Below are positions 2,450 to 8,627 of a DNA stretch of 19,501 nt, piece after piece (position 1 is the stretch's first letter; the number at the start of each line of letters is the position of its first letter). Below the pieces are notes generated by a model. It worked only from the letters and a program-made list of their open reading frames with translations, was not told the origin of the DNA and did not search any database. Origin of the DNA: Acidobacteriaceae bacterium (GTDB taxonomy: Bacteria; Acidobacteriota; Terriglobia; Terriglobales; Acidobacteriaceae); the NCBI GenBank assembly GCA_030042915.1, contig JASHYS010000206.1, positions 1 to 19,501 of the forward strand, in the 5' to 3' direction. The position numbers and the translations under genes were made by a program.

Positions 2450-4540
2450 TCAAGCCTGTTTTCCTTCGATTTCCCCATCTGAGTCCCACCTAAGGAGTCT
2501 CGCCAAGTCCTGGGCCAGTTCCGGAATGGATTCATCACCTCCAGAAAGCCCGCGGACGCGATTGAGCTGCGCGCGGTACGCGTCTGCATATGAGTTCACA
2601 AAGGCCACCATTTTCTTGCTCGTCTGCTCGCCCCATAGATCGAGCGCTCGCCCATATCGGTGCAACTCTTCCTTAAGCAGCGGGCCAAGATGCTCACGAA
2701 GGCTATTTCTCACGACCACTCGCACAATAGCTCTTCCAAGCCAGCTCCAATGAGCGGCCCTTATCTTCACGGAGACAACTTCGATCTCGAAGCGCGGAAC
2801 TTCCCTCAGCAACAATTCGCCATCTGTGTTCGAAGGCATATCGGAACGAGACATCTCCCCGGCGATCTCTTTCAAAGAATTAACTGCAGCGATAACGCTC
2901 TTCCGCGCTTTGGCAATAGTCTCGTCCACTCGACGCTGCACCATATCGTGGGTCCACTCAGAAATCTCGAACGGAGTGAAATCCCTCCTCTCCCGCGCAC
3001 AGATGCGTGCCGTGATCATCTCTGCAAGTTCCGCTACAACGATTTCTGGCTGCTCTCCCAGCTCAAGAAATGCTTGACTAAGGGTGCTCCGCAGCTCGCC
3101 GATTTCTCCATTGATTCGACGAAGTCGCATTTCTATGTCATGAGCATCGATTGTGCGGGCGGCTTCTCTGCCGCGCTTCTCACGGTTGAGTGAGGTTTCG
3201 AGAGCCGCGATGACAGAGTCGCGAAGAGCCCCGATTTTTCTGGCTACCGATGCCTCGCGCAGAGTGCGGGCCTGCTCAAATCTGGGGTACAACTCACTTT
3301 CAAAGAACTGATCGAGGAGTGGAGCGTACCCCGGCAAGGAGCTCACCGGATGAATCTGTGTGTTAATCCCGAGTTCGTGCTTTAACTGTGCTTGGATGTA
3401 TCCCGTGACCCTGTGGAGATCGCCTTCTCGCAACAGGTCCGCCTTGCTGAGCAACACAATGGATGGAATACCGCCTTCATAAAGAAGGCGGAGTGTCCCG
3501 ATGTCTTCATCGTTGAGAGCCACTCCGGCATCGATCAGTAGTAGGGCTAGGTCGCAGGCTGGCAGGTAAGCAAGTGTCTCGGCGGCTCCGCGCCGGGCAA
3601 GCGACCCCAGGCCAGGGGTATCGACCAGAAGGATACCTTTTTTGAGACGTGACGAAGGAACTTCAGCCATCGCTCGGACAATGTTGCGCACGTTTCCGGG
3701 ATTGCCCTGCTCGGAAATGAGTCGCGAGAACTCTTCAAGGGAAACCTGTTCTACTCTCCCACTAGCAAAGGTCACTTCCGCGCGCAGGGAGTTTCCATAG
3801 CGCAGCTTCGTCGGCACAGCCGTGATCGGGTTCACCCCGACCGGTAGGACATTTGTATCCAGAAGCGCATTTAAGAGCGAAGACTTGCCACAGCTGACTC
3901 GCCCAAAGAGGGCTACTTCAAGATGATTGTCCTCCAAGCGATGCGCAAGAGAACCAACGCGTGCCCGGAATTCAACTAGACCATGGCGGGTGATAATCTC
4001 TTCGAGTAAACGCAGGAGTGCGACATCGTGGCCGGTCTGCTCGAGCTCTTCCAGGCGGCTTTGAAGATTGGTTCCGAACTCCTGGCGGATGTATCGCTGC
4101 ATACTTTGCACAACGGATCGGAGTTCGTGGACTACGCCGGTCAGTTCGTCGGCCGCATCAGCCGGAACCGCTCCCGAGCCTCGCATGTAGCTTGGCTTAA
4201 GTTCCTCAACAGCAATGTCGATGAACTCAAGATGAGTAAGCACGGACCTGGTGGCCGGTATTTCCGGGGGTTCAGGCTTCATCTTCTGCCAGGCGAGCGA
4301 ACGTAGAAGCTGTTCGCGGATCCTGCGAATGTGATCTTCAAGCACGCGCGCCTGTGCAGGGGTAATGTCAATGACATGATGAGGGAAAGGAGATGGCGAG
4401 GCTGCCTCATTAAGGACCTGCTCTATCTCCGCGAGGAGTTTGTCAATGTATGAGCATGTGATGTACAGGCGTCGCTGCTGAGCACCGTTGAGCTCGCCTG
4501 GGCTCTGTGTATCTGATACCTCGGGTTTAATTTCGGGCAT
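2450..4540 (-). CDS. Bacterial dynamin-like GTPase
   Basis: The 696-residue protein has an N-terminal helical region, a GTPase domain from about 190 to 420, and a helical C-terminal half. The GTPase motifs are all visible: the P-loop GRVSCGKSS (213-221), switch threonine in NPITAVPTKLRYG (237-249), DTPG (307-310) and SKAD (365-368). The domain order (helix bundle, GTPase, long stalk) is that of bacterial dynamin-like proteins (BDLPs), which remodel or protect membranes. The hydrophobic, aromatic stretch SWLGRAIVRVVV, about 80-90 residues from the C-terminus, could be a membrane-binding paddle. It starts with ATG after GGAGGA, and that ribosome-binding site lies in the switching helix of the second riboswitch. 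It lies between enolase and crcB in the fluoride cluster. A role in fluoride-induced membrane stress is inference; a fluoride operon is not a usual place for this family. Confidence 0.93.
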   Translation of the reverse strand: MPEIKPEVSDTQSPGELNGAQQRRLYITCSYIDKLLAEIEQVLNEAASPSPFPHHVIDITPAQARVLEDHIRRIREQLLRSLAWQKMKPEPPEIPATRSVLTHLEFIDIAVEELKPSYMRGSGAVPADAADELTGVVHELRSVVQSMQRYIRQEFGTNLQSRLEELEQTGHDVALLRLLEEIITRHGLVEFRARVGSLAHRLEDNHLEVALFGRVSCGKSSLLNALLDTNVLPVGVNPITAVPTKLRYGNSLRAEVTFASGRVEQVSLEEFSRLISEQGNPGNVRNIVRAMAEVPSSRLKKGILLVDTPGLGSLARRGAAETLAYLPACDLALLLIDAGVALNDEDIGTLRLLYEGGIPSIVLLSKADLLREGDLHRVTGYIQAQLKHELGINTQIHPVSSLPGYAPLLDQFFESELYPRFEQARTLREASVARKIGALRDSVIAALETSLNREKRGREAARTIDAHDIEMRLRRINGEIGELRSTLSQAFLELGEQPEIVVAELAEMITARICARERRDFTPFEISEWTHDMVQRRVDETIAKARKSVIAAVNSLKEIAGEMSRSDMPSNTDGELLLREVPRFEIEVVSVKIRAAHWSWLGRAIVRVVVRNSLREHLGPLLKEELHRYGRALDLWGEQTSKKMVAFVNSYADAYRAQLNRVRGLSGGDESIPELAQDLARLLRWDSDGEIEGKQA

Positions 4541-4574
4541 GACTCCTCCAAGTGTTCGCGCTTCGAGGAGTCAT
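4539..4574 (-). promoter_or_regulatory. Switching hairpin that hides the dynamin ribosome-binding site
   Basis: Perfect 10-bp arms, ATGACTCCTC (4574-4565) and GAGGAGTCAT (4548-4539), are separated by 16 bases on the minus strand. The 3' arm contains the GGAGGA ribosome-binding site and the first two bases of the dynamin start codon. The 5' arm is the 3' end of the fluoride aptamer, so the aptamer helix and this hairpin cannot form together. No T-tract follows, so it is not an intrinsic terminator. Pairing in the absence of fluoride would block translation, and aptamer formation would free the site. Confidence 0.8.
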
Positions 4575-4610
4575 TTGCCCTTGTGAGCCGTTCCGGTGGA
4601 CTCCAACACC
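4565..4610 (-). promoter_or_regulatory. Fluoride riboswitch (crcB motif), second copy
   Basis: Read on the minus strand, GGTG (4610-4607) pairs with CACC (4598-4595) around an 8-base loop, TTGGAGTC. A linker GGAAC follows, then a hairpin GCTC-ACAA-GGGC (4588-4577), then AAATGACTCC. The loop's GGAGTC can pair with GACTCC (4572-4567), giving the pseudoknot-like closing helix of the fluoride aptamer. The Bacillus cereus crcB riboswitch has the same order, with GGAGTT and ATGACTCC. The copy here has a short second hairpin and a less conserved linker than the copy at 6786-6847. It begins 13 bp after the enolase stop, so it is an internal switch of a longer transcript unless an unseen promoter lies in eno. 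Confidence 0.85.
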
Positions 4611-4623
4611 ACTTGCCAATTTC

Positions 4624-5928
4624 TTATGCCTTCACTGGCTTCTTACGGCGCTCGTAAGCGCTCACGCCTGCATAGCGCCCTTTGGATCCCAACTCGCGCT
4701 CGATCTCCAGTAGCCGGTTGTACTTCGCGATTCGCTCGCCGCGGCAGGCGGAGCCCGTCTTGATCTGGCCCATGCCGGCCGCCACTGCAAGATCGGCAAT
4801 GCTGGTGTCGTCGGTTTCCCCAGACCGGTGAGAGATCACCGCGCCGTAACCGTTCGACCTCGCCATCTCAATGCAGTCGAGTGTTTCGGTGACAGTCCCG
4901 ATCTGGTTGAGCTTGATGAGAATGGCATTGGCGATGCCATCCTCGATTCCCTTGTGAAAGATCTCCGGATTGGTGACAAAATTGTCGTCGCCCACGAGCT
5001 GAATTTCATCTCCCAATTCCTTCGTGATCGATATCCAGCCCAGATGGTCGTCCTCCGCCATACCGTCTTCCAGGGACCAGATCTCCGGGTACTTCTGAAG
5101 CCAGCTCTTATAGAGCGCGACCATCTCGACAGGGGATTTCCTACTCTTATCCGATTTGGCGAAGACATATTTGCCCTCATCGAAAAACTCACTGGCCGCT
5201 GGATCGAGCATAATGGCGATATCTTTCCCCGGTTTGTAGCCAGCCTTCTGAATGGCCTCGAGGATCAGTTCGACCGGCTCTTCGTTAGATTTCAGTTGTG
5301 GAGCAAACCCTCCCTCATCGCCAACGCCGGTGCTATAGCCCTTCTTGTGCAGTACCCCCTGGAGGGCGTGGAACGTTTCCGCAGATGCACGCAACGCCTC
5401 ACCAAAAGAAGGGGCGCCTACAGGAGAGATCATGAATTCCTGGAAGTCGACGTTGCTGTCGGCATGCTTGCCGCCATTTAGCACATTGAGACCGGGCGTT
5501 GGCAGAAGATTGGCCGGTTCGTCCACAATGCTTGCGTAGAGTGGGAGGCCACGGTCCTTAGCCGCGGCAACGGCTACAGCCAGTGAAACGCCAAGAATCG
5601 CGTTGGCTCCGAGTCGGCCCTTGTTGGGCGTGCCGTCAAGTTCGCATAGCTTCTTGTCGAGCCCTTTTTGATCGTTGGCATCAAAACCGCGGATAGCTTT
5701 CTGAATTTCGCCCTCCACATGCCCTTTCGCTTTCAGTACGCCCTTGCCGCCGTAGCGGGATTTATCCCCGTCACGAAGTTCAACCGCTTCGCGCTTGCCG
5801 GTTGATGCCCCAGACGGCACCTTCGCCGTAGCAGTGACTCCATTCGACAACGTCGCAGTAACGGCCAGCGTGGGATTACCACGGGAGTCCAGAATTTCAA
5901 GCGCATCGACTTTCGCAATTTCAGACAT
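4624..5928 (-). CDS. eno: Enolase (phosphopyruvate hydratase)
   Basis: Full-length 434-residue enolase, which converts 2-phosphoglycerate to phosphoenolpyruvate in glycolysis. Visible active-site elements include the Ser-loop [10 protein letters not shown] (38-47), H155 in [10 protein letters not shown]205 in [10 protein letters not shown], the Mg2+ ligands D242, E287 and D314/D315 ([17 protein letters not shown]), the catalytic base K339 in [17 protein letters not shown] (366-374) and K390 in QIKTGS. No key residue is missing. Enolase is strongly inhibited by fluoride together with Mg2+ and phosphate, and eno genes have been reported under fluoride riboswitches (family knowledge). Its position between two such riboswitches therefore fits target replacement or boosting. 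The 155-bp leader before it shows hairpins, including CGGCC-TTGT-GGCCG just before the start codon, but only a weak ribosome-binding site. Whether this is the cell's only enolase cannot be told here. Confidence 0.98.
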
Positions 5929-6083
5929 GATGATTTCGCTTTCCCGGCCACAAGGCCGATTGCTATGAAAACATGAGCACTCCGATGAAGAGATGAATCA
6001 CAGTTGCCGAACTGCAATCTTGCATCGACCAGCGCTTTCGCTCAATGGATGCACAATCCTCATGACCAACCCCTTTCTTGCCT
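5929..6083 (-). other. usp-eno intergenic leader with small hairpins
   Basis: These 155 bases contain no gene. On the minus strand two tidy hairpins are visible: CAGTT-CGGC-AACTG near 6002-6015, and CGGCC-TTGT-GGCCG near 5946-5959, close to the eno start. Neither is followed by a T-tract. No fluoride-aptamer pattern was found here, so eno would rely on the upstream riboswitch or on an unseen promoter. Confidence 0.5.
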
Positions 6084-6521
6084 TCAGTGGACAATCATGA
6101 CCGGGCAATGCGAATACTTGAGAACTCGCTCTGTATTAGAGCCCCGCGCCCATCGATGTAATACAGTGTGACCGCTCTTGCCCATCACGATTACACTGGC
6201 CTGTAGCTTGTCGGCCACTTGAATGACCAGTGCCGCGGGGTCTCCGACAGCAATCTCCGTCTCGAGTTCGACCTCCCCCTGCTTGGCGCGCTCCCGCACT
6301 GAATCGAAATAACGCTCAAAGCGATCACGCTGATCGTCGAGCACCCCACGGAGCTCCGCGCTTTCTGCAGTCTTCGGCAGCCAGATGACCGACAGCACAT
6401 GCAGCTTGGCATTCGCATCTCTGGCCATGGAAAACGCAACGTTCAAAGCGTGCTCCGCATGAGGCGATCCATCAAACGCCACCAAGATTCTTTGAAACCC
6501 AGAAAAAACAGGGCTTCCCAT
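6084..6521 (-). CDS. Universal stress protein (UspA family)
   Basis: The 145-residue product is a single Usp domain. It starts with RILVAFDGSPHAEHALNVAF, the first strand with its ATP-contact Asp. It ends with GKSGHTVLHRWARGSNTERV, which fits the ATP-binding pattern G-x2-G-x9-G-S, followed by SHCPVMIVH. ATP-binding Usp proteins act in the cytoplasm in stress survival. I chose the ATG at 6521, with GGTGAG a few bases upstream. In-frame TTG (6533) and GTG (6530) codons are alternatives. The start lies just after the stop of the small upstream ORF, so the two may be coupled. Usp genes are among those reported downstream of fluoride riboswitches, which fits this placement. Confidence 0.93.
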   Translation of the reverse strand: MGSPVFSGFQRILVAFDGSPHAEHALNVAFSMARDANAKLHVLSVIWLPKTAESAELRGVLDDQRDRFERYFDSVRERAKQGEVELETEIAVGDPAALVIQVADKLQASVIVMGKSGHTVLHRWARGSNTERVLKYSHCPVMIVH

Positions 6522-6526
6522 CTCGC

Positions 6527-6715
6527 TCACCAAGACTCATTAGGCAGACCGATGTTTCGCCAGGCGCAGTACTTGCGTATTGATCGTTTGGAAAGCAGGG
6601 CATTGCGAGGGAACGATGCCGATCGCACCAGGGCGCAAAATCCGACGCGTCGAATCCCCACCGCGATCAGAGCAGACCCCACTGACAAAGCTGCCACGAA
6701 CCATGGACTAATCAT
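6527..6715 (-). CDS. Small membrane protein, first gene after the riboswitch
   Basis: A 62-residue ORF with a hydrophobic N-terminal segment (about residues 4-22, WFVAALSVGSALIAVGI) and a basic, Arg/Lys/Ser-rich tail (SKRSIRKYCAW). This looks like one transmembrane helix with a cytoplasmic basic end. The ATG follows AAGGAG at nine bases, a good ribosome-binding site. The stop lies just before the usp start, as expected for an operon. I do not recognise a family. It could be a real small stress protein or an open stretch of leader RNA; the strong ribosome-binding site favours a real gene. Confidence 0.5.
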   Translation of the reverse strand: MISPWFVAALSVGSALIAVGIRRVGFCALVRSASFPRNALLSKRSIRKYCAWRNIGLPNESW

Positions 6716-6759
6716 GGATCCAAGCTCCTTCAGTTTTGTTCGGGGATCGCTGCCGGGAC

Positions 6760-6794
6760 ATGACTCCGCAACAGGATTCCCTGTCAGGAGTCAT
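6760..6794 (-). promoter_or_regulatory. Expression-platform hairpin of the first fluoride riboswitch
   Basis: On the minus strand ATGACTCC (6794-6787) can pair with GGAGTCAT (6767-6760). An inner stem ACAGG-GAAT-CCTGT (6784-6771) extends the hairpin. The 5' arm is shared with the aptamer's closing helix, so the two structures exclude each other. The arms are nearly those of the hairpin at 4539-4574, indicating a common switching logic. There is no T-tract, and the ribosome-binding site of the next ORF lies about 40 bases further on, so the output step (Rho, RNA stability or a leader ORF) is unclear. Confidence 0.65.
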
Positions 6795-6847
6795 CATCTG
6801 TCCGGCCTATTCGGAGGACAGCGGTTAAAGGTGAACTCCGTCACCTC
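6786..6847 (-). promoter_or_regulatory. Fluoride riboswitch (crcB motif), first copy
   Basis: The minus strand matches the fluoride aptamer closely. AGGTG (6846-6842) pairs with CACCT (6833-6829) around ACGGAGTT. Next comes TTAACCGC, then a stem CTGTCC/GGACAG (6821-6816 with 6803-6798), then ATGATGACTCCT. The loop GGAGT pairs with ACTCC (6791-6787). The spacing, the AAC linker and the GATGACTCC end all agree with known crcB-motif RNAs. The aptamer begins one or two bases after the expected transcription start of the promoter at 6854-6882. It should control the small ORF, usp and probably eno and the genes beyond. Confidence 0.93.
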
Positions 6848-6853
6848 GACTCA

Positions 6854-6882
6854 AGTCTATGGTTGCAAAAAACTAAAGTCAA
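6854..6882 (-). promoter_or_regulatory. Sigma70-type promoter of the fluoride cluster
   Basis: On the minus strand a -35 box TTGACT (6882-6877) and a -10 box TAGACT (6859-6854) are separated by exactly 17 bases. The spacer is T-rich (TTAGTTTTTT). The expected start near 6848-6847 coincides with the first base of the riboswitch aptamer, which supports the call. Confidence 0.8.
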
Positions 6883-6896
6883 GCAGTGTAAAGGGG

Positions 6897-6932
6897 GGTA
6901 CTGTCCTAATTTAAGTAAATTAGGACAGTACC
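6897..6932. repeat. 36-bp near-perfect palindrome
   Basis: The arms GGTACTGTCCTAATTTA (6897-6913) and TAAATTAGGACAGTACC (6916-6932) are exact complements with two bases (AG) between them. It lies 15 bp beyond the -35 box of the fluoride promoter, next to a recombinase remnant. The form suggests two terminal inverted repeats of a mobile element brought together, or a strong bidirectional hairpin. No element family could be named by eye. Confidence 0.85.
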
Positions 6933-6951
6933 AAAGCGGGAGTGCTTCAGT

Positions 6952-7044
6952 TTGAAATTGCAAGCAAAGGTCCGGTTCGGGCGCGAGGTGACGGTTCAGA
7001 GGATTCGGGACAAGATTGCGGGTTCGAAAAAGAAGGGCACGTGA
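6952..7044 (+). pseudogene. Serine site-specific recombinase remnant
   Basis: The plus-strand frame from 6952 ends at a TGA at 7042-7044 and encodes FGREVTVQRIRDKIAGSKKKG at codons 9-29 (6976-7038). This closely resembles the end of the catalytic domain and start of helix E in serine recombinases, whose usual form is FEREVTGERIRDKIAASKKKG. Nothing recombinase-like was found before or after it, and the catalytic Ser region is absent, so it is a short fossil. The adjacent 36-bp palindrome may come from the same lost element. Confidence 0.65.
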
Positions 7045-7690: not shown

Positions 7691-7796
7691 GGGCAACCCA
7701 GAAGTCTCTACAACTGAGTTGCTTGCGTTGCTTGGGAAGAATAGACCCCCCGGAAACGCGTTTAGGTCGAGTGATGTTGTTTCTCATCGCCGACTA

Positions 7797-7823
7797 CACA
7801 CCCGCTCTGGGCGAGCGGGTGTG
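7797..7823. repeat. 11-bp-arm hairpin
   Basis: Arms CACACCCGCTC (7797-7807) and GAGCGGGTGTG (7813-7823) are perfect complements with a 5-base loop. No T-tract lies on either side, so it is not a typical intrinsic terminator. It is the strongest single stem in the block. Confidence 0.8.
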
Positions 7824-7865
7824 CACAGAGCCGTCGCCGTTGGACACCCTAACGCGTCGACTACA

Positions 7866-7927
7866 CCTGGTCCCTCTCCGGCCGGCGCATATAAAAACCC
7901 GCGCGCGGGGGCGAGCCGGCCTCCGGG
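7866..7927 (+). repeat. 62-bp direct repeat, copy A
   Basis: This copy runs from CTGGTCCCT through GCGCATATAAAAACC and GCGCGCG to GGGGCGAGCCGGCC. It aligns with copy B 132 bp downstream with several substitutions and small indels. The outer CCGGC/GCCGG arms can pair. Confidence 0.75.
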
Positions 7928-7997
7928 GCCGCCAGGATCGGCTCTTGGGGGAAGCTTTCCAAATGGAATCGAGTGGGCCCCCGCAGCCGGCCAGGAC

Positions 7998-8060
7998 CTG
8001 GCCCCTTCTCGGCTAGCGCACATAAAAATTCGCGCGCGCAGGGGCGAGCCGGCCCCCGGG
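7998..8060 (+). repeat. 62-bp direct repeat, copy B
   Basis: This is the diverged second copy: CTGGCCCCT, GCGCACATAAAAATT, GCGCGCG, GGGGCGAGCCGGCC. The pairing arms survive (CGGCT/AGCCG), with one position changing from a mismatch in copy A to a Watson-Crick pair here. That hints at selection on structure, though two copies are weak evidence. Confidence 0.75.
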
Positions 8061-8627
8061 TGTGCCCTCGGTGTGCCGGGGGCTTCCAGTCTGCCTCTTT
8101 GGCTAGCCGGCCGAGTGGGGGTAAAATCCGCCGGGGGCCTTCTGTCTTGGGCGAGACCAGGGCGGACCGGCTGGAGCAGGTCAGGCCTTGGGGGTAGCCA
8201 ATGCCTGGGGCTTGTCTTTAAGCCCTTGGGTCTTGTTGGGTGTCTTGGGGGAGAGTGGGTTTGTGAAGAGAAACCTTTTTCGTCGTCAGCCGGAGACGTC
8301 TGTTTGAGCGCCGCGCCGCCAGCCCCCGTTAGGGCTGGACAGGCGCTCCAGACCCGGTTGGGCCGGGTAACCAAGTGGTGGTTACTTTCGACTGATCGAG
8401 GTGGAAAAACCCCGCGGAGCTCCTGGCAGGATTTTCAGGTCTGAGGCCGGATCCCTATAGGGTTCCGACCAATGACTGGAGCTCCCTTACCAATTAAAAC
8501 TTGTTTTTGCGCACTAAGGCCCTGACCTAGTCGGGAGAAATCAAGCTCTCCCGTCCAAGATTGAAGTTCGCAACCATACAATAGCGACAGCCCCGTTCAG
8601 AGAACCTTGTCTGGCCCAATTCCCACA

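Follow-up and report, generated by a model that had tools for sequence, protein, structure and literature searches.

Why should one bacterial operon carry two sensors for the same ion, one ahead of its first gene and another in its middle? The question is raised by a stretch of 19,501 nucleotides from an Acidobacteriaceae bacterium (contig JASHYS010000206.1 of assembly GCA_030042915.1; hereafter the window). On its minus strand, to which all genes and RNA elements of the operon belong, lie in order a promoter, a first fluoride riboswitch (RS1), a short open reading frame (ORF), usp, eno, a second fluoride riboswitch (RS2), a gene for a dynamin-like GTPase, crcB, a frame designated orfX and two DUF190 genes. 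The reading that we favor, with a probability of roughly 0.7, is that of a fluoride-resistance operon with one promoter (6882-6854) and two fluoride riboswitches in series, both of which would have to open before the dynamin block is expressed. It would represent a natural and conserved case in which one mRNA seems to sense the same ion twice, with probably two levels of output, and it would tie dynamin-like GTPases to fluoride defense. The source is an acidobacterium, since the top dynamin relatives in the genome collection come from Acidobacteriaceae metagenome-assembled genomes (MAGs); loci L008 and L009, both of a single MAG (JOPF070), are 98-100% identical to the window dynamin across the stretches that they hold.

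The two aptamers and their 6/38 pair

Both aptamers are confirmed, at the level of sequence, on the minus strand. RS1 (canonical A6/U38 aptamer, core from P1 to the 3′ strand of the pseudoknot at 6787-6845) is matched by the Rfam fluoride family RF01734 at 6854-6778 with 39.5 bits (E 5.9e-8), above the cut-off of 34, and ranks as a member of that family. RS2 (4567-4610) is matched at 4619-4558 with 20.1 bits, under the same cut-off, and with an E value of 0.13 for all 4227 families; it is filed here as a variant homologous to RF01734 and not as a member by the Rfam threshold. Because of this sub-threshold score, RS2 was evaluated out of sample with a covariance model, R1, which comprises 18 aptamers from loci with a dynamin 35-41% identical to that of the window (16 of them immediately precede that dynamin) and contains neither the window sequence nor close relatives of it. 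R1 gave 36.7 bits (E 1.5e-8) for RS1 and 35.5 bits (E 3.1e-8) for RS2, the next-best match in the window being at 8.2 bits (E 0.62). A match to IRES_Bip with 17.2 bits (cut-off 40) was taken as chance.

The initial annotation had proposed a pair of fluoride riboswitches in one gene cluster, and the covariance models recover it, RS1 with the Rfam model itself and RS2, which stays below the Rfam cut-off, with R1. As it had stated, RS2 lies between eno and dynamin-crcB, starting 13 nt after the eno stop. RS1 was placed before usp-eno and is indeed upstream of both, but the first reading frame 3′ of it is a 62-codon ORF (6715-6527), with usp next. Similarly, the GGAGT...ACTCC pairing is present in both aptamers but forms the pseudoknot, not a closing helix. 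In RS2 of the window P1, the pseudoknot GGAGU/ACUCC and P3 can all be drawn. Across 37 sequences of the RS2 type, P1, the pseudoknot, the 6/38 pair and P3 are paired in 99.6% of 518 cells versus 39-57% in slid versions, a count in which the first three elements are partly fixed by the search pattern and P3 is free.

The two aptamers differ at a tertiary contact. In the crystal structure, positions 6 and 38 form a reversed Watson-Crick pair (A6-U38) and positions 40 and 48 a Hoogsteen pair (A40-U48) (PMC11586693, PMC10687018), the long-range A6-U38 pair being described in T. petrophila (PMC11586693). RS1 has A/U at 6/38 and RS2 the swapped U/A. A pattern that left both positions free retrieved 171 aptamers, 152 of them unique, from the window and 91 loci; 86 of the unique ones have A/T and 66 have T/A, with no mismatched combination. 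A phylum-wide set, evenly drawn from 247 Acidobacteriota genomes, yielded 48 matches in 35 genomes (none with a reversed-pattern control), distributed as 39 A/T, 5 T/A and 4 G/C (37, 5 and 4 among the 46 unique) and nothing else. Three pair types without a single mismatch argue strongly for the pairing, even if a Fisher value on these counts overstates independence, the sequences being related. Position 48, the linchpin partner, was also left free and is T in 152 of 152 aptamers, A40 being fixed by the pattern; the A40-U48 linchpin is present in both RS1 and RS2. The swap provides evolutionary support for the tertiary contact of the crystal structure and marks aptamers that are partly missed at the Rfam cut-off. 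Rfam does not overlook all U/A aptamers, some of which exceed that cut-off (G004:C46:98422 with 44.7 bits and G008:C225:4822 with 39.3 bits), and the four mapped pre-dynamin ones (in G001, G004, G013 and G017) reach 16.4-31.6 bits in Rfam; the Rfam curators may already know the swap. The difference at 6/38 could tune the affinity of RS1 and RS2. U6/A38 aptamers also precede related genes at L036:7347, L038:11709, L006:15714 and L087:1479, the L036 protein having a MutS domain V.

Conservation was assessed in 80 dynamin loci, 79 with usable upstream sequence (L008 is incomplete there), by counting plus-strand R1 matches (E value of at most 0.01) that lie no more than 300 nt ahead of the dynamin start. 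Such an aptamer is present in 64 of the 79 loci (38 of the 45 with at least 55% identity, 26 of the 34 with less), and is of the RS1 (A/U) type in L029 and L042. The order aptamer, eno, aptamer-dynamin was found by script in 30 of the 79, among which L034 and L023, with eno fragments, and L065, with eno 2.4 kb away, are looser cases. A cultured relative, Acidicapsa dinghuensis 4GSKX (L027), shares the arrangement of the window. In two loci from different MAGs, L020 (9621-9973) and L025 (3384-3740), usp and eno have been lost save for remnants (by eye) and both aptamers are kept in one leader, 248 and 252 nt apart, respectively. That both outlast the deletion of the intervening genes argues that each has its own job. 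An aptamer, an enolase gene and a dynamin gene also stand in a row in L064:7243-10920, a contig labelled Methanoregula (an archaeon), where mis-binning is possible.

Promoter and expression platforms

The promoter of the operon (6854-6882) is a sigma-70-like site, TTGACT-17-TAGACT, with 8 nt between its second hexamer and the first P1 base of RS1. It is the only such site in 4300-7000, where shuffles would give 1.2, and it ranks first on the operon strand, with a score of 13.2, under a weight matrix for which 37 RS1 sites from relatives, but neither the window nor L009, were used. A strong independent promoter inside eno was also sought, and the best site within 400 nt before RS2 scores 4.9. 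In 24 chosen loci, the 70-mers upstream of RS1 exceed the random 95% level in 16 of 16 cases, and those upstream of RS2 in 0 of 25. Intrinsic terminators are absent from 4300-7000 (0 found; mean of 3.1 in shuffles), and the RS1-RS2 interval contains neither a promoter in the matrix scan nor a terminator. The earlier claims that no terminator separates the sensors and that a single transcript carries both of them are thus well supported by the sequence: the RS1 promoter holds rank 1, no terminator was found and the pair is conserved. One uninterrupted mRNA would then be expected to cross both riboswitches, each of which presumably binds fluoride and acts as an ON switch.

RS1 would sense the ion as the transcript starts. 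Its competing hairpin (6760-6794) joins AUGACUCC (6794-6787) to GGAGUCAU (6767-6760), with an inner stem of ACAGG (6784-6780) and CCUGU (6775-6771). The fold has a computed energy of -21.2 kcal/mol (z -5.5), and it is paired in 95.6% of 588 cells in 42 of 43 platforms, versus 36-53% when slid. One inner pair is changed on both sides in nine sequences; overall, two pairs have two-sided changes, a number reached by 168 of 500 shuffles, and 10 cells do, a number reached by 0 of 500. In the proposed mechanism, the pseudoknot strand AUGACUCC would pair with GGAGUCAU when fluoride is absent, so that the long hairpin forms; in its presence the strand would be locked in the pseudoknot, the hairpin could not close, and the operon would be expressed, probably via relief of transcription attenuation. 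A possible alternative helix (6743-6781), in which GGGAAUC (6781-6775) pairs with GAUCCC (6748-6743), is exclusive of the inner stem of the hairpin. By reading, it is ungapped in 31 of 43 RS1 platforms, and its arms covary among them (CAGGGA/TCCCTG, GCGGAT/ATCCGC, AGGATTCTTGT/GCAAGAATCCT); in the window it has 4 pairs only, with -5.2 kcal/mol.

RS2, placed 2.2 kb further between eno and the dynamin gene, would constitute an independent second gate. Its 3′ strand AUGACUCCUC (4574-4565) contains the pseudoknot strand and is perfectly complementary to GAGGAGUCAU (4548-4539); the latter covers the Shine-Dalgarno (SD) sequence GGAGG (4549-4545) minus its first base, plus bases 1 and 2 of the dynamin start codon. 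On both strands of the window, the 10-mer GAGGAGTCAT occurs only in the arms of this hairpin (2 matches versus 0.04 expected). The platform (4539-4574) folds with -21.0 kcal/mol (z -6.4; 0 of 200 shuffles equally stable) and is paired in 96.0% of 481 cells in 37 sequences, versus 38-53% when slid; an SD match is present in 39 rows, of which all but L070 and L080 were used here. A complement of 10 or 11 nt is present in 26 U/A aptamers.

Since AUGACUCCUC is complementary to the ribosome-binding site and start of the dynamin gene, RS2 is most likely a translational switch, and we are fairly sure of this part of the mechanism; a competing pairing over the SD sequence, which defines translational riboswitches, is seen here as a 10-bp complement over SD and start. 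Without fluoride, the pseudoknot strand would pair with the ribosome-binding site and start codon, and dynamin translation would be blocked; with fluoride, the strand would be held in the aptamer and the site left free. Expression of the dynamin gene would therefore need both gates open, and so would that of the genes downstream, to which (crcB first) its repression may extend by translational coupling or polarity. The second checkpoint before the dynamin and channel genes that the initial annotation had supposed fits both the position of RS2 and its hairpin. In 31 of 32 loci, 6-19 nt separate the eno stop from the aptamer (for L006, the remaining one, the script meets a stop only beyond the aptamer), a distance at which ribosomes finishing eno could touch P1 of RS2.

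It is tempting to go one step further, albeit tentatively, toward the graded or staged control that the initial annotation had suggested. The swapped U6-A38 aptamer of RS2 might be tuned to a different fluoride level, such that usp and the fluoride-type enolase are made first while the dynamin-channel block requires more fluoride, and the deletion derivatives L020 and L025 might be true tandems acting by two mechanisms. We are unsure of these staged thresholds and regard the whole proposal as possible rather than likely. If true, the derivatives would be, to our knowledge, the first known tandem, bi-mechanism fluoride riboswitches.

Counter-evidence and rival explanations

Together with the sub-threshold Rfam score of RS2, several results weigh against two riboswitches acting in series, and they are considered here along with the explanations that they would favor. 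No U-tract follows the RS1 hairpin in the window as an intrinsic terminator would have it, which makes intrinsic termination doubtful and the output level of RS1 uncertain. Furthermore, the ungapped alternative helix was not found in the window, which falls outside the 31 of 43 platforms. Given both observations, the output level of RS1 is a guess, and we are unsure of it. RS1 may instead act on translation or through Rho, in which case the two gates need not differ in level; this alternative, which affects one step only, is a serious contender, at somewhat less than even odds. It agrees with the lack of a terminator in 4300-7000 and with the presence of GUCCCGGCA or a similar sequence, devoid of U's, after the hairpin in most of the 43 relatives listed. 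In addition, GGAGUCAUG resembles an SD sequence plus start, and ACUCC can pair with later AGGAGU sites, e.g., in L016, L018, L019 and L026. However, the GGAG-ATG spacing is just 2 nt, the reading frame that follows is short and by eye not conserved, L018 keeps the box but has ATA for ATG, and T-rich tails do follow the hairpin in L032, L041 and L052, the only ones seen by eye among the 43.

The evidence at RS2 is also mixed. Its plain fold, in which the pseudoknot cannot be shown, is ordinary (z 0.47; 128 of 200 shuffles as good). Covariation in the SD-masking hairpin is slight (two-sided changes in 2 cells, a number reached by 51 of 500 shuffles) because both arms are fixed by other duties, and its conservation overlaps an SD sequence and a start codon that are conserved anyway. 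Over all 152 aptamers, shuffles equal the best downstream complement in 18% (A/U) and 20% (U/A) of cases on average; a platform of this kind is therefore not found in every aptamer, and a strong complement is the property of a subset. Distant relatives have no RS2-SD complement (16 pre-dynamin rows are among the 26 rows lacking an SD match), and the translational platform is therefore confined to nearer relatives. With -21.0 kcal/mol, the hairpin greatly exceeds the pseudoknot-free aptamer (-11.3) in stability, from which we infer that the choice would be made during transcription. Finally, 15 of the 79 dynamin loci have no nearby aptamer, several of which (e.g., L028, L032, L041, L054 and L058) keep an upstream one.

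Some of this could mean that RS2 no longer senses fluoride, being a worn aptamer of which only the SD-masking hairpin matters, for instance by coupling dynamin to eno translation. Points in favor are the 20.1 bits in Rfam, the altered joining segment after P1 in some relatives (e.g., L002, L035 and L039) and the short distance of 6-19 nt between eno and the aptamer. It would also suit L028, where the aptamer upstream of the dynamin start (5844) has been lost and a perfect hairpin, GATGGCTCCTC/GAGGAGCCATC, is kept at the same place. Nevertheless, P1, P3 and U6/A38 would not be kept if the hairpin were all that mattered, and the near-complete pairing of P1, the pseudoknot, 6/38 and P3 (99.6% of 518 cells in 37 sequences), together with the invariance of position 48, which was free in the pattern, makes a worn RS2 unlikely.

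An RS2 that still reads fluoride could also belong to a separate unit, with a promoter inside eno driving RS2-dynamin-crcB and the two riboswitches on different transcripts. In the 300 nt before RS2, 2 of 24 loci do exceed the random 95% level, and 20% of 45 RS2-like sites did so in 70 nt in a looser set, which took in aptamers of other genes; moreover, promoter scans of this kind miss other promoter types. We consider two units quite unlikely, given the 4.9 of the best window site in the 400 nt before RS2 versus 13.2 for that of RS1, the 0 of 25 within 70 nt, and the start of RS2 13 nt past the stop, which would put the start site within eno. That U6/A38 aptamers form a variant class for another ligand is very improbable: the change is class-wide, at a tertiary pair beside the ligand site, and such aptamers also precede other genes, e.g., that of the MutS_V-domain protein, but the pairing is kept, the remaining core and the linchpin are unchanged, G6/C38 exists too, and the genes are fluoride-defense genes.

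Known systems, neighboring genes and further aptamers

Translational fluoride riboswitches occur in Pseudomonas, and those that we know of all lie in 5′ leaders, none between genes. RS2 shares with this type a ribosome-binding site masked by RNA pairing. A translational fluoride riboswitch of archaeal hyperthermophiles is mentioned in PMC11077080. With the fluoride riboswitch in general (crcB motif, RF01734), both window aptamers have in common P1, the pseudoknot, P3, the 6/38 tertiary pair and the 40/48 linchpin; they depart from it in the swapped 6/38 pair, position within an operon and sub-threshold score of RS2, and in the absence of a U-tract after the RS1 hairpin. The reuse of the pseudoknot strand in a competing hairpin is shared with a published fluoride covariation model (PMC13273304). 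Repeated riboswitches inside an operon had been called uncommon, which agrees with Sherlock 2022 (PMC9481103), where fluoride is named among the classes not found in tandem. There, tandem means one leader and not one operon, with gaps over 300 nt left out. The same paper describes bi-mechanism tandems (SAM-II/SAM-V) that, like the arrangement proposed here, have two independent same-ligand riboswitches per transcript, probably with two output levels; unlike them, the window aptamers are 2,176 nt apart, beyond the 300-nt limit, with usp and eno in between. By the definition of a shared 5′ untranslated region and a gap of at most 300 nt, the window pair is not a tandem, while L020, L025 and L081 are by distance. 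A full-text literature search found no paper that combines dynamin and fluoride riboswitch terms. What stands out as new is the conservation of the arrangement in series, together with the swap at 6/38 and the tandem fluoride riboswitches of relatives.

According to PMC11139923, riboswitch-controlled fluoride genes include exporters, antiporters, a pyrophosphatase and enolase. The exporter, antiporter and enolase of the operon match this known response, its gene content being typical of fluoride regulons. The 62-codon ORF (6527-6715), preceded by an SD sequence, is probably the remnant of a lost CPA2-type antiporter gene, judging by the likeness of its N-terminus (by eye); the remnant has no Pfam match. 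A full-length antiporter stands between RS1 and usp in L019, L021, L026 and L058, and the L021 protein matches TIGR00932 (E 8.7e-26), under the cut-off of that model. A conserved small protein after RS1 was discarded in favor of the remnant, as the ORF matched only the window and the near-identical L009. A conserved leader peptide from GGAGUCAUG was dropped as well, since frames and stops vary by eye and L018 has no start.

The product of usp (6084-6533) is a universal stress protein (PF00582, E 1.8e-30), and eno (4624-5928; TIGR01060, 614 bits) encodes a second, fluoride-type enolase paralog, which groups with copies 77-99% identical, whereas the 60-64% copies from those genomes fall outside this group. 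Genome-wide counts come from relatives. Among the 17 genomes searched, the fluoride type is present in 15, 13 of which also carry the housekeeping type (in G011 a fragment only); G003 and G007 are without the second type and G014 and G017 have it alone, the genomes being incomplete so that absences mean little. Between fluoride-type (20) and housekeeping (10) enolases there are 44 clade-diagnostic positions, at three of which the housekeeping copies have a gap, and the differences include K-R versus E-H directly after SGASTG. Altered catalytic residues were rejected, since the displayed active-site motifs are kept, and fluoride resistance of the enolase is not claimed.

The dynamin-like GTPase (2450-4540; 696 aa; PF00350, E 4.9e-23) was searched in 396 Acidobacteriota genomes, where at least 3 genomes matched among the matches listed, with 2 candidates scored per genome, so that prevalence cannot be read from this number. 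In a search for a viral carrier, none of the 64 pattern stretches encodes the dynamin. Many relatives have a second dynamin-like gene, about 30% identical, after the DUF190 genes (e.g., L001:13927-14832); its window counterpart would fall beyond the window edge. Next come crcB (2050-2427), encoding the fluoride channel Fluc (PF02537, E 1.3e-26; TIGR00494, 110 bits, above cut-off), and orfX (1484-2176), a cysteine-rich frame that many relatives have in the corresponding position, that has no Pfam or NCBIfam match and whose true start is likely inside this ORF, just 5′ of the crcB stop (by eye). Two DUF190 proteins follow, with two domains (707-1474; PF02641, E 2.3e-60) and one (342-710; PF02641, E 4.8e-37). 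Just upstream of the promoter, 6897-6932 is a perfect inverted repeat (arms of 17 bp, 2 nt between them), perhaps a mobile-element end, and 7790-8450 is very G+C-rich, with similar blocks about 130 bases apart and no convincing gene (by eye).

Further fluoride aptamers are found in the relatives. At E≤1, the 17 genomes have 3 to 18 fluoride-model matches each, and 13 of 14 control genomes give matches at this level as well; above the cut-off, our own count among the matches listed is at least 10 in G011 and at least 9 in G013. A 61-bit aptamer at L085:4549-4610 faces away from RS1 and heads a gene with an NADHdh domain in a hydrogenase/NADH dehydrogenase-like cluster; next to RS1 in the window there is no match of this kind. 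In the closest relative, L008:5341-6060 contains two pyrophosphatase-like genes (by eye) after the operon, and a separate fluoride aptamer with a T-run hairpin precedes each of them. Two same-strand aptamers also precede a single inorganic pyrophosphatase gene in L081:7492-7713 and L082:5395-5836 (domain checked in L081). All four are above the Rfam cut-off, the gaps are 100 nt (L081) and 320 nt (L082), and the first aptamer is followed by a terminator-like hairpin with a T-run; these pairs are candidate true tandem fluoride riboswitches.

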